From an uncultured bacterium (lineage in GTDB: Bacteria > Cyanobacteriota > Vampirovibrionia > Gastranaerophilales > Gastranaerophilaceae), in contig CASDXV010000017.1 in assembly GCA_949285255.1 (NCBI GenBank), forward strand, positions 1 to 64,000: a stretch of 64,000 nt of DNA, in the 5' to 3' direction. A program made the translations under genes and the position numbers. Below the pieces are notes generated by a model. That model searched no databases and was not told where the DNA came from. It saw nothing but the letters and a program-made list of their open reading frames with translations. Positions 26,901 to 38,679 of this stretch are shown here, piece by piece. Position 1 is the first letter of the stretch. Each line of letters starts with the position of its first letter.

Positions 26901-27651
26901 AATCTACCCAAAAATCTTTGTTATGGCGCATAAACCCGTGGCAGGCAAAAGGTAGAGTTTTGTCATTCAGTTTGTATAAAATTTCAGGATTAACCTCAAA
27001 AGAGAATTTGAGGTTAATTTCATTTGGTGCGATTTTAAAGTTTTTATCTATACAGGGGAAAAAATTCACAACAACATAGTCTTCATTAGGCACTTTAGCG
27101 GGCATTTTTGGCAGTGCGAATTTTATATAGTTAAAAATGTTGTAGGCAAGCTTTTTGTCTTTTTTGATTGAAAAAATTGCCGATAATTTTTTGTTTTTTA
27201 AAATTGAAATAAATGTATTTATTTTTCTGAGGCTTACTCCGCCATTACCAGAGGGCGAGAGCATTTGGCTTGTATCTTTCATAAACCAAGGGGCACCTAT
27301 GTAGTCATAGTCTTTATTGCACCAGATATCAAGTTCATCTCTAAAAATCCATCCGTCAAGCTGAAATAAAAACATAAAATCAAAATTTTTAAATCTTTCA
27401 TAAAAATCAACATCAAGGAGAAGTTTTGAATAACTTTGAATTGAGATAAAGTTTTTATTGTCAAAAAATTCGAAATCTGTGTTTATGTTGTTTTCTTGTG
27501 CAAGGTTTTTATAAAAAGTCACATCAAGTGATTTTGGCGCTATAAAACAAAAGTTTTTAGAGCTTAATGTGCTAAAACAATTCAGCAAAGAGGCAGTTTC
27601 TATTTTGTCAGGGATTTTTTTATATATCGGTATTGTTATAACTGTTTTCAT
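26869..27651 (-). CDS. DUF5672-type protein, glycosyltransferase-like
   Basis: 260 residues. Blocks such as [23 protein letters not shown] and GNGGVSLR (about residues 98-155) are typical of DUF5672 proteins, which sit in surface-polysaccharide clusters and have a glycosyltransferase-A-like look. No signal peptide or membrane helix, so it is probably cytosolic. Sugar donor and acceptor cannot be told. It is a single gene behind the tRNA-Val terminator, and its 3' end overlaps leuB by 32 bases. No other polysaccharide gene is next to it. Confidence 0.75.
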
Positions 27652-27687
27652 TTTGTTTTGAAATAGAACCCTTTTAATTAATACAGT

Positions 27688-27716
27688 AAAAAACCACTCC
27701 TAAAGAGTGGTTTTTT
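27688..27716 (-). terminator. Terminator after tRNA-Val
   Basis: A 12-bp stem, AAAAAACCACTC with GAGTGGTTTTTT and a 5-base loop, starts right beyond the encoded CCA of the tRNA on the minus strand. Confidence 0.88.
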
Positions 27717-27717
27717 A

Positions 27718-27793
27718 TGGTGGGCGTTGAGAGGCTCGAACTCCCGACATCTTCCTTGTAAGGGAAGCGCTCTACCAACTGAGCTAAACGCCC
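27718..27793 (-). tRNA. tRNA-Val (anticodon UAC)
   Basis: A 76-base tRNA including an encoded CCA. Acceptor GGGCGTT pairs with AACGCCC, discriminator A. D-arm GCTC/GAGC with AGTTGGTA loop; anticodon stem CTTCC/GGAAG with loop CTTACAA, so anticodon TAC, reading GUA and other Val codons; T-arm GGGAG/CTCTC with loop TTCGAGC. It is followed by a terminator and preceded by tRNA-derived tandem repeats. Confidence 0.96.
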
Positions 27794-27996
27794 TAAAATA
27801 TTTAATTGTCACTTTACTTTGTTTAGCTCAGTTGGTATATCATGTGCATCCGCACATCGGCTTCGCCGAGTGAGCTAAACGCCCTAAAATATTTAATTGT
27901 CATTTTACTTTGTTTAGCTCAGTTGGTATATCATGTGCATCCGCACATCGGCTTCGCCGAGTGAGCTAAACGCCCTAAAATATTTAATTGTCATTT
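27781..27996 (-). repeat. 91-bp tandem repeats built from inverted pieces of tRNA-Val
   Basis: About 2.4 copies of a 91-bp unit; matching points are 27781, 27872 and 27963. The first copy includes the first 13 bases of the tRNA. Each unit holds a perfect 10-bp inverted repeat, GTTTAGCTCA (27821-27830, 27912-27921) and TGAGCTAAAC (27871-27880, 27962-27971). Inside are two hairpins, ATGTGC/GCACAT and CGGC/GCCG, so an RNA could fold as a three-way junction. One arm repeats tRNA-Val bases 1-14; the other is an inverted copy of bases 5-21 (GTTTAGCTCAGTTGGTA). Copies differ at very few positions, so the amplification is recent or is being homogenised. Confidence 0.92.
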
Positions 27997-28035
27997 AGAT
28001 ATCTGTCAGGCGTATAACGCCCTTAGGGTATTATT

Positions 28036-28063
28036 ATAATACTTGCTCAAAAACTAAAGTCAA
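28036..28063 (-). promoter_or_regulatory. Promoter for the repeat-tRNA-Val transcript
   Basis: On the minus strand TTGACT (28063-28058) and TATTAT (28041-28036) are 16 bases apart. Transcription would start near 28029 and run through the 91-bp repeats into tRNA-Val. A second possible weak start lies in each repeat (TGACAATTAAATATTTTA just before GGGCG). Confidence 0.5.
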
Positions 28064-28068
28064 GTACT

Positions 28069-29880
28069 TTATACTTCTACTTCATTTCTTGCAAACTGCA
28101 TTTCATAGAGATACTTATACTGCCCGTTTGGAATTTGCATAAGTTCGTTATGCGTACCAAGTTCTACCAACTGTCCGTCGTTAATTACGGCGATTTTATC
28201 CGCATTTTTAATCGTAGATAATCTGTGAGCTATAACAAATACTGTTCTGCCTTTAATTAAGTTTTCAAGTGCCTTTTGTACTATTGCTTCAGATTTGTTA
28301 TCAAGCGCTGATGTTGCTTCATCTAAAATTAATATAGGTGCGTTTTTAATCATGGCTCGAGCAATCGCTACACGCTGTCTTTGACCGCCGGATAGCGTTG
28401 TTCCCCTTTCGCCAATAACTGTATTAATACCGTCTTTAAGTGTGTCAATAAAATCATCCAAATGAGCCGCACGCACTACTTCCATTATTTCTTCTTCCGT
28501 AGCATCTTTTTTGCCCATTAAAATATTGTCTTTTATGGTTCCGGAGAATAAGAAGTTATCCTGAAAAACTTCACTAACGTGATTTCTTAGTGATTTTAGA
28601 GAAAAGTCTCTTATATCTTCGCCATCAATTTTTATACTGCCTGATTTAATATCATAAAATCTCGGTATTAAGTTTACTATGGTGGATTTTCCGCCGCCGG
28701 AGTTACCCACAAGCGCCAGCATTTCACCTTTTTTGACTTCAAAAGAAACCCCTTTGAGCACAGGTTTATTTTCTATGTATTCAAAAAATACGTTTTCAAA
28801 TGTCAGGTTATTTTCTATTCCTTTTAACTCTTTTGCATTTTCCTTATCTCTAATTTCAGGCTGCAAGTCAAAAAGTTCAAATACTCTGTTCATTGAAACA
28901 AAAATATTTTGCATACTTGTTAATGTTGACCCAAGTGTTTTTACGGGTTTGTACAAAAGCAAAAGTGAAGTTATAAAACTTGCAAGCGAGCCTGTAGACA
29001 TTTCGCCAGTTATGATAAGGTGATTACCAACCATCATAACAATAGCTATACCGATACTTGCGATAAAATACATAATCGGAGAAAGCCAGCCTGCTCGCTT
29101 TGTAAGTGACATAGAAAGCGTAAAGAGCTCCCTTATCTGAGTTGTAAATTTTGTATAAATGTCTTCCTGCAGACAATATCCGCTTATTATTTTGTTGCCG
29201 TGATATGTTTCGTTCACATTTGTCGTCATGCCGCTGCCTACAACCATAGAGGCGTTAGAAACTTTTTTAACTCTTTTTCTGATTAAGGAAACAGGAATAA
29301 AAGCACAAACAAGAACTATAACGCCTACAAAAGCCAGCTTCCAAGAGTTATAAAGAAGTACTGCTACAAGTCCGAGTGAGCCTGTAAATGCGGTAATTAA
29401 TGTTTTAATTGATTCAACGACATTTTTTGATGCTGTATCAGGGTCGGATAAAAATCTTGAAATAACAAGCCCTGACGTGTTTTCATCGTAAAATTTTGAA
29501 TCAAGATAAATAAGTTTTTTAAATAAATCCTCTTTAACCGAGTTTGATATTTTAATGCTAATCCAATCTGTAAGGTAAGAGTTTGCGTATTTAAGAACAC
29601 CTTGAATAACGGCAAATAGCATAATCGCCCAAGGTATAACAACAACAAGCAAGTCCCTTGTAAGTTCAAATGTTTTAAAAACATAAGGTTTATTGTTTAT
29701 TACAACATCAATATACGGTTTGAGCGCAAAAGCTGTTGCACCGTCAAGCAAGCCAAGAGGTATTGCAAGGGCAAAACCTATAATAATTCTAAACATTACG
29801 GGTCTTATATAGGGCCAAATTCTTTTAAGAAGATACCCGTAGTCAAATGCTCTGTCTGTGTTTATAACATTAAGTTTCAT
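28069..29880 (-). CDS. msbA: ABC transporter, MsbA-like exporter (fused permease-ATPase)
   Basis: 603 residues. Six transmembrane helices over about residues 25-330, then an ATPase domain: Walker A GNSGGGKST (near 393), Q-loop region VFQDNFLF, signature LSGGQRQRVAIARA, Walker B ILILDEATSALD and the switch histidine in IAHRLST. The half-transporter works as a homodimer. MsbA-type exporters flip lipid A-core across the inner membrane, which fits the presence of waaA in the window; drug or peptide exporters of the same family cannot be excluded. It ends just before the tRNA-Val promoter. Confidence 0.82.
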   Translation of the reverse strand: MKLNVINTDRAFDYGYLLKRIWPYIRPVMFRIIIGFALAIPLGLLDGATAFALKPYIDVVINNKPYVFKTFELTRDLLVVVIPWAIMLFAVIQGVLKYANSYLTDWISIKISNSVKEDLFKKLIYLDSKFYDENTSGLVISRFLSDPDTASKNVVESIKTLITAFTGSLGLVAVLLYNSWKLAFVGVIVLVCAFIPVSLIRKRVKKVSNASMVVGSGMTTNVNETYHGNKIISGYCLQEDIYTKFTTQIRELFTLSMSLTKRAGWLSPIMYFIASIGIAIVMMVGNHLIITGEMSTGSLASFITSLLLLYKPVKTLGSTLTSMQNIFVSMNRVFELFDLQPEIRDKENAKELKGIENNLTFENVFFEYIENKPVLKGVSFEVKKGEMLALVGNSGGGKSTIVNLIPRFYDIKSGSIKIDGEDIRDFSLKSLRNHVSEVFQDNFLFSGTIKDNILMGKKDATEEEIMEVVRAAHLDDFIDTLKDGINTVIGERGTTLSGGQRQRVAIARAMIKNAPILILDEATSALDNKSEAIVQKALENLIKGRTVFVIAHRLSTIKNADKIAVINDGQLVELGTHNELMQIPNGQYKYLYEMQFARNEVEV

Positions 29881-38323: not shown

Positions 38324-38620
38324 TTACGCTTTCACGGCAGCTTGTTCTATAAACATTGTTCTTATAACATTTTCGTTAAGTTTTAGTTGTCTTTTGAACT
38401 CAACAACTTTGTCAGGGTCGAGATTTATTTTTAATACAGCAATAAAGCCGTCTCTAAAACCTTTAACGTCGTATGCTAATTTTTTTCTGCCCATTTTGTC
38501 AGTGTCTACAACGCTTCCGCCTAATGAGCTAACTGATTCTTCGATTTTGGCAATAACTTTATCTGCTTCATCATTATCTAAATTTGGTTTAATTGTTGCA
38601 AGCAGTTCGTATTTTTTCAT
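38324..38620 (-). CDS. rpsF: 30S ribosomal protein S6
   Basis: 98 residues; MKKYELLATIKPNLDND, KMGRKKLAYDVKGF and VIRTMFIEQ are standard S6 blocks. S6 pairs with S18 in the 30S platform. The start region (ribosome site, ATG and first codons) is duplicated as a 35-bp tandem repeat, giving a second initiation site 35 bases upstream in another frame. The known S6:S18 leader motif was not seen in the short leader. Confidence 0.95.
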   Translation of the reverse strand: MKKYELLATIKPNLDNDEADKVIAKIEESVSSLGGSVVDTDKMGRKKLAYDVKGFRDGFIAVLKINLDPDKVVEFKRQLKLNENVIRTMFIEQAAVKA

Positions 38621-38676
38621 GATTTCTCCTTATTGTACTTATCGTATTTTTTCATGATTTCTCCTTATTGTACTTA
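38607..38676 (-). repeat. 35-bp tandem duplication of the rpsF translation start
   Basis: Two identical 35-bp units, 38607-38641 and 38642-38676. Each has AAGGAG, the ATG and codons for MKKY. The copy nearer the gene starts rpsF; the upstream copy starts a 12-codon reading frame. Perfect identity points to a recent event or to selection. Confidence 0.95.
38617..38655 (-). CDS. Possible 12-residue leader peptide upstream of rpsF
   Basis: The upstream start copy encodes MKKYDKYNKEKS and stops at TGA (38619-38617), which overlaps the rpsF ATG (38620-38618). It has the same AAGGAG site as rpsF. Ribosomes ending here could re-start at rpsF, so the peptide may tune rpsF-ssb-rpsR translation. It is too short for family assignment and may be only a by-product of the duplication. 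Confidence 0.4.
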   Translation of the reverse strand: MKKYDKYNKEKS

Positions 38677-38679
38677 TGT

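Follow-up and report, generated by a model that had tools for sequence, protein, structure and literature searches.

Bacterial tRNA leaders are usually regarded as short sequences that are discarded by RNase P. The window, that is, the whole stretch of 64,000 nucleotides that was analyzed, belongs to a metagenome-assembled genome (MAG) of Candidatus Gastranaerophilales (non-photosynthetic Cyanobacteriota) of 1.6 Mb in 43 contigs, referred to as G000. An initial reading of the sequence alone had described direct and inverted tRNA-Val pieces arranged as a 91-bp tandem array upstream of tRNA-Val, and this description is accurate. The best explanation is that the array represents one case of a lineage-specific class of tRNA-leader elements in the Gastranaerophilales. 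There is a roughly 50% chance that it acts in cis as a leader able to adopt either of two folds that exclude each other, one in which the tRNA is freed and one in which its D-arm is trapped.

On the minus strand, a putative promoter is followed by unit 1, unit 2, tRNA-Val(UAC), and a terminator-like hairpin (Table 1). The two units are 99% alike (TRF), and unit 2 directly abuts the tRNA. The interval originally delimited, 27781-28063, begins 13 bp within the tRNA gene, and the array proper spans 27794-27975. Each unit opens with the exact bases 1-14 of the tRNA (GGGCGTTTAGCTCA), continues with the hairpins TCGGC-GAA-GCCGA and TGTGC-GGAT-GCACA and the stretch TGATA, carries the antisense TACCAACTGAGCTAAAC, which is the exact reverse complement of tRNA bases 5-21, and ends in AAAGTAAARTGACAATTAAATATTTTA, an AT-rich 27-nt spacer whose end is the tRNA's own leader. 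In the minimum free energy (MFE) fold, a 10-bp stem encloses the two hairpins (-25.2 kcal/mol, z -4.5, matched by 0/200 shuffles); sequence and fold both agree with the direct copy, the inverted copy, and the stem that had been proposed at the outset.

Table 1. Features of the tRNA-Val locus, listed in minus-strand order.
Feature	Position	Strand	Details
Putative promoter	28036..28063	-	-35 TTGACT 28063-28058, -10 TATTAT 28041-28036, 16-nt gap; 10/12 consensus positions
TTGAMAATTNAATA-like motif (ATGACAATTAAATA) 5' of unit 1	27981..27994	-	
Unit 1, 91 bp, promoter-proximal	27885..27975	-	
Unit 1 strand 1, exact copy of tRNA-Val bases 1-14	27962..27975	-	
Unit 1 hairpins	27934..27960	-	P2 27960-27948, P3 27947-27934; fold and pair counts
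Unit 1 strand 2, antisense of tRNA-Val bases 5-21	27912..27928	-	
Motif ATGACAATTAAATA, interval between unit 1 antisense and unit 2	27890..27903	-	
Unit 2, 91 bp, adjoins tRNA	27794..27884	-	
Unit 2 strand 1, exact copy of tRNA-Val bases 1-14	27871..27884	-	
Unit 2 hairpins	27843..27869	-	P2 27869-27857, P3 27856-27843; fold and pair counts
Unit 2 strand 2, antisense of tRNA-Val bases 5-21	27821..27837	-	
Motif GTGACAATTAAATA, interval between unit 2 antisense and tRNA	27799..27812	-	Predicted in loop of antisense:tRNA duplex
tRNA-Val(UAC), anticodon TAC, encoded CCA	27718..27793	-	ARAGORN; Rfam RF00005 71.5 bits
Terminator-like hairpin 3' of tRNA, AAAAAACCACTC-TTTAG-GAGTGGTTTTTT	27688..27716	-	Read from sequence; unflagged by terminator scan

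No Rfam family passes the threshold on the Val unit (cmscan of 27500-28300, with only sub-threshold chance hits), in keeping with the earlier statement that it matches no standard feature type. In the same interval the tRNA family RF00005 matches only 27721-27793, and ARAGORN calls only the real tRNA-Val in the window, which argues against the idea of a tRNA mimic. Because the acceptor 3' strand and the T-arm are missing, RNase P is unlikely to act on the unit alone, and the suggested RNase P decoy was rejected on these grounds. The promoter-like site noted previously was recovered as the sole sigma-70-like site detected on the minus strand (scan of 27500-28300), a TTGAC[AT]-N16-18-TAT[TC]AT site lies 5' of the array in 12 of 13 congeneric Val loci, and no minus-strand terminator-like site was found in the scan between the promoter and tRNA-Val. 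The position of the promoter suggests that the array is co-transcribed with the tRNA. Between promoter and unit 1 lies a palindrome with a tRNA-like start, GGGCGTTATACGCC (28008-28021), which may be a decayed older copy and, when the full length is folded, is base-paired to the 3' end of the tRNA. Elsewhere in the window, positions 38607-38677 hold a perfect tandem duplication of 35 bp containing a TTCTCCTTATTG stretch.

The neighboring MsbA-like gene places the close relatives in Candidatus Gastranaerophilales, including Ca. Galligastranaerophilus intestinavium. The search of related genomes that had been recommended for the 91-bp unit recovered it in 13 of the 15 genomes in the genus, with identities of 82-96%, always in the interval between the ABC gene and tRNA-Val, and in one to three copies, the exact copy numbers being uncertain as they derive from MAG assemblies. 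An assembly artefact could be suspected in a MAG of short-read-like data, all the more as several contigs end within arrays, and this doubt had been voiced from the start. Its probability is practically negligible, given that the unit recurs in the separately assembled MAGs of these 13 congeneric species and that units with species-specific differences are found in many separate MAGs and on many tRNAs. In the sister lineages L050-L058, the gene order is unchanged, but the leader is short and lacks a unit; L043, also from a sister lineage, holds a decayed Val unit only. Plasmid and viral-contig searches returned no match to the unit. An exact-match scan of GTDB contigs likewise returned none, as expected because the unit evolves fast.

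Several variants of the Val leader were observed along the way. In a goat-gut relative from a sister lineage (L059, 4804-4954), tRNA-Val has a different leader element, in which tRNA bases 1-18 come first, followed by a GTTAGC-GATA-GCTAAC hairpin, a shortened anticodon-arm-like hairpin, and then a variant of the leader motif described below. In L020 (G014, 1501-1650), the unit has lost an internal segment, and a second antisense copy, itself truncated, lies beside the tRNA, showing units caught being lost or rearranged. Another short partial copy, GGGCGTTTAGCTCAGGGGTAAAT, lies 5' of tRNA-Val in L146, L147, and L148 (G196, G332, and G290; genus g15). The encoded CCA end of tRNA-Val is absent in two species of the genus (L015, L016) and present in the others.

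The architecture is not restricted to valine. The absence of related arrays elsewhere had been named as grounds for dismissing the feature; in fact, related arrays are widespread in the order. Within G000, 17 of the 30 tRNA genes have a direct (at least 10 nt) or inverted (at least 9 nt) copy of their own 5' end within 300 bp upstream, and 12 of the 30 carry both, so that the sequence-only reading had overlooked the same device on about half of the tRNA genes of the genome. Examples besides Val include Trp, Phe, Asn, Ala-UGC, Gly-UCC, Arg-CCG, Arg-CCU, Arg-UCU, Pro, Leu-CAA, Leu-GAG, Lys-UUU, and His, often with tandem units. The parts follow a shared order (5'-end copy, hairpins, D-arm antisense, motif TTGAAAATTNAATA, tRNA); the hairpin cores vary between tRNAs of one genome, and each antisense fits its own tRNA. 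Half of the G000 tRNAs (50%) match their own upstream region over at least 10 nt, direct or inverted, compared with 2% for tRNAs of other amino acids, which speaks against chance matches.

In a survey of eight genomes, tRNAs with both features amounted to 8/21 and 4/22 in the same genus, 5/23 in genus g15, and 5/20 in another family (f6), and none were seen in genus g2 (0/27 tRNAs), genus g7, or family f2. Trp units persist in at least 12 of the 15 species of the genus, and that of G012 is decayed. The D-arm pattern CCAACTGAGC-N25-55-GCTCAGTTGG, an inverted D-arm followed by a D-arm, was found in 41 of 382 genomes of the class and 11 of 97 genera, all belonging to this order, an undercount because only tRNAs with this D-arm sequence are covered; the reversed control pattern occurred in 0/382. 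In other orders of the class, comparable upstream copies precede 3 of 50 sampled tRNAs, in one family only. That the elements are real, tRNA-matched, and order-wide can be held with near certainty. In another order (L310, L297, and L309, from G342 and G347), tandem or single partial tRNA copies lie 5' of Gly-GCC, Thr, and Ala, and at two of these loci the inverted pieces stem from the anticodon-stem region, not the D-arm.

The units might alternatively be small mobile palindromes that enter the 5' portion of tRNA genes, or enter other structured RNAs, and rebuild the disrupted gene through duplication of the leader together with the tRNA 5' end. Direct repeats (leader end plus tRNA bases 1-14/19) do flank each insert, the rnpB inserts of G003 and G011 resemble parts of Pro/Tyr leaders, and a tmRNA has a comparable unit. 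Rickettsia palindromic elements, whose lifestyle would be comparable, are short hairpin-rich inserts in genes. However, a mobile element would carry a common core, and this origin is therefore disfavored and improbable: no core is shared between sites or between the different tRNAs of G000, the sequence follows the host tRNA with an antisense that tracks each one, and the 91-bp query, searched against its own genome, rises above chance only at this locus and otherwise recovers tRNA scraps. The tmRNA unit (L318 of G098, upstream of tmRNA at 1501) comprises an exact 22-nt 5'-end copy, GGGGATGTACTGGTTTTGACGC, and hairpins, with TACATCC complementary to the copy and TTGACTATTGAATA preceding. The hairpin-rich rnpB inserts (L284 and L285, of G011 and G003) contain GTGTGTGAAG and GTAACCGTACC as the leader-like parts.

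A further constant of the class is the motif TTGAAAATTNAATA. With up to two mismatches, it lies between the antisense and tRNA arms in 49 of 50 hits from 11 genera (shuffles 1.2%), and it occurs within 50 nt upstream of the tRNA in 50/58 unit-bearing and 26/128 (about 20%) unit-free tRNAs (shuffles 1.1%). Six unit-free tmRNA genes (L312-L317) begin 1 nt past a motif variant, which in the five congeneric ones is GAACTTTGAAATTTTAATA, a sequence near the tRNA-leader motif and reminiscent of boxA. A leader peptide was considered and rejected: the ATG frame through the Val unit is not general, and the motif of other units holds a stop (for instance TTG AAA ATT TAA). TTGAAAATTNAATA resembles the boxA-type signals of Gram-positive rRNA leaders; a printed Gram-positive boxA form was not found in the open literature, and no rRNA genes in which the motif could be sought were found in the genomes searched.

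The resemblance invites another explanation: the units would count as structured, motif-bearing spacers within a device for transcription or processing, and their likeness to tRNA sequence would be incidental. Spacers of this kind could act as boxA-like Nus loading sites or RNase cleavage sites, or be released as sponges or as small RNAs that are stable; in E. coli, stable RNAs can arise from tRNA spacers. The boxA-like motif, found also in unit-free leaders and directly before tmRNA, would fit such a device, but the antisense to the D-loop of the own tRNA, its stronger pairing with that tRNA, and its conservation are left unexplained, and we consider it quite improbable. In E. coli, the boxA/Nus/SuhB complex has been implicated in rRNA maturation (PMC4807359), and a role of such a complex in leader folding is therefore conceivable.

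The pairing properties of the antisense were computed for 31 strict units, with thermodynamics that ignore modifications, tertiary contacts, and kinetics. The antisense covers chiefly tRNA positions 11-22, with a peak at 16-20 in nearly all units. Its duplex with the tRNA has a mean of -28.6 kcal/mol versus -16.3 kcal/mol for the duplex of copy and antisense, and is the stronger of the two in 30/31. The computed pairings of the 31 units are mutually exclusive and of comparable stability, as sought in attenuation-type leaders. For unit 2 of the Val locus, pairing of the antisense inside the unit comprises 10 bp, and the alternative pairing with tRNA-Val comprises 17 bp; this longer, downstream pairing had escaped the sequence-only reading. 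Joint folding of unit and tRNA gains 10.0 kcal/mol with units versus 1.0 kcal/mol for unit-free tRNAs (58 vs 128 tRNAs). Computed capture is specific as well, with -12.3 kcal/mol for the own tRNA versus -1.7 kcal/mol for within-genome swaps, of which 1.6% are equally strong. In 28 of 31 cases the MFE fold is rearranged: the antisense occupies the D-arm of the tRNA proper, whose 3' acceptor strand is paired with the acceptor strand of the copy. For Val, this predicted fold leaves the anticodon and T arms intact, pairs GCUC of the copy with GAGC of the tRNA, and amounts to a cloverleaf whose D-loop carries about 90 inserted nt. When growing Val transcripts are folded sequentially, capture beats the closed unit after about 11 nt of tRNA.

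In the proposed leader switch, each unit would be transcribed ahead of the tRNA from that tRNA's own promoter. Strand 1 would be the copy of the first 10-19 bases of the tRNA, strand 2 the D-arm antisense after the hairpins, and strand 3 the real tRNA. With strand 2 on strand 1, the unit would be closed, and the tRNA could form its cloverleaf and be cut by RNase P; with strand 2 on strand 3, the D-arm would be caught in a duplex of 13-19 bp with TTGAAAATTNAATA in the loop. In the captured state, the copied acceptor strand could substitute for that of the tRNA, giving a tRNA-like RNA with a large D-loop insert. The D-loop antisense is single-stranded in the closed unit and can therefore serve as a toehold on the nascent tRNA. 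Because the motif lies in the capture loop, a binding factor is suggested, possibly a boxA/Nus-like complex, which would tip the balance. The outcome would most likely be the share of each transcript that matures to functional tRNA, under whatever regulatory input may act on it. Among the points against the switch, the minimum-energy fold keeps the tRNA trapped, and whole genera such as g2, as well as some species, are without units. A lack of RNase P as the cause of the odd leaders was rejected, RNase P RNA having been found in 7/7 genomes tried. Leader pairing is known to inhibit RNase P (PMC9433436). Those leaders share with the present ones a pairing to the tRNA that can slow RNase P, but only a few of their nucleotides pair with the 3' RCCA, whereas here a tailor-made D-arm antisense of 13-19 nt is present.

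Conservation was measured as mean pairwise identity in Val and Trp units (n = 12 each, one per species for Val). The D-loop antisense of the Val units, TACCAAC, has no stem partner in the unit and is 97.6% identical; the stems reach 92.5%, the leader 70%, the loops 69%, and the adjacent spacers 48-50%. In the Trp units, the antisense extension GTTCTAC reaches 95%, the spacer 81%, the 3' part 64%, and the acceptor copy 60%. According to RNAalifold, the Trp spacer may form three weak pairs with the antisense region, so the absence of a partner holds for the main stem only. Compensatory stem changes, as looked for in a conserved structured RNA, were found: in Trp hairpin P2, double changes occur at three pairs (covariation 0.182 vs 0.103 in shuffles, 0/500), and the Val units have one pair with a compensatory change (5 cells). 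The Val P1 stem shows little covariation because tRNA-Val is invariant. The acceptor copy (bases 1-8) is unconserved in single-unit Trp loci, and therefore only D-arm capture, which withstands this comparison, is claimed as general, not the acceptor swap. For the full alternative cloverleaf, rejected as the selected state, the same Trp loci stand against its prevalence among the computed folds.

The strongest rival is template switching at the D-stem palindrome combined with slippage, in which the tRNA as donor keeps the pieces perfect and the RNA structures are passengers. Slippage at a tRNA palindrome had been suggested early on, and as a plausible origin it stands; on its own it fails to account for a fixed architecture and a conserved motif in 11 genera. 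The D-stem is a natural inverted repeat, copy number varies among near-identical tandem units as slippage predicts, decayed units exist (L043; Trp of G012), and a tRNA donor could hold the antisense perfect with no need for selection. Template switching is a known source of RNA hairpins, which it also preserves, and it can fix compensatory changes even in the absence of selection (PMC8794818); the perfect inverted copies beside a structured RNA are alike in both cases. What was described there is a mutation process, whereas here a conserved, motif-bearing architecture is confined to one order. Template switching does not predict a motif kept at one place in nearly all hits, nor a common order of parts on many tRNAs. 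Nor does it explain why, among 382 genomes, the pattern is confined to one order when D-stem palindromes occur universally. Each unit is flanked by perfect direct repeats of about 30 bp; such repeats are deletion-prone and should purge passengers fast, yet the units are kept across the genus, both for Val and for Trp. As a full account, template switching is thus unlikely; it could be the origin of the units even if function came later.

Several known systems invite comparison. The 178-bp tyrT repeats of E. coli (rtT RNA) are tandem repeats downstream of a tRNA that copy its 3' end. They likewise lie in the transcription unit of a tRNA and each hold a piece of it, but the units described here are upstream, consist of the 5' end and D-arm antisense, and occur on many tRNAs across an order; downstream of the Val gene of G000, no direct match above 6 nt was found. 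In trp-type attenuation, 1:2 and 2:3 pairings compete in the leader. In both, three strands whose pairings exclude one another lie upstream of the product that is regulated, but here the alternatives include neither a leader peptide nor a terminator, and the third strand is the tRNA itself, so that folding and maturation, not read-through, would be controlled. T-boxes, which control mRNAs, recognize mature tRNA in trans by means of a specifier and an antiterminator; they too are leader RNAs specific for one tRNA, whereas the present units act, if at all, in cis before the tRNA gene, and RF00230 gave no match at E up to 5 (cmscan of 27500-28300). Membership in attenuators, T-boxes, or tyrT repeats therefore fails on defining features. 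Searches of the open literature returned nothing on tRNA leaders of this order and nothing combining a pre-tRNA leader with inverted and tandem repeats. The leader class looks previously undescribed, in the sense that open papers yielded no description, which is not proof of absence.

A whole order thus has leaders written in each tRNA's own sequence, for many isoacceptors and possibly for tmRNA. If they form a folding switch, translation capacity would be subject to a further, new level of control, and the leaders would be a natural device of toehold strand displacement. A more far-reaching, tentative reading is global self-control by each tRNA: every unit-bearing transcript would encode matched sense and antisense, and toehold displacement, tuned by the motif-binding factor and the unit copy number, would pick between a functional tRNA and a trapped, D-loop-extended one. 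If true, small-genome gut bacteria could set their tRNA pool without transcription factors. If instead template switching maintains the units, they would be a striking natural record of that mutation process on essential genes.
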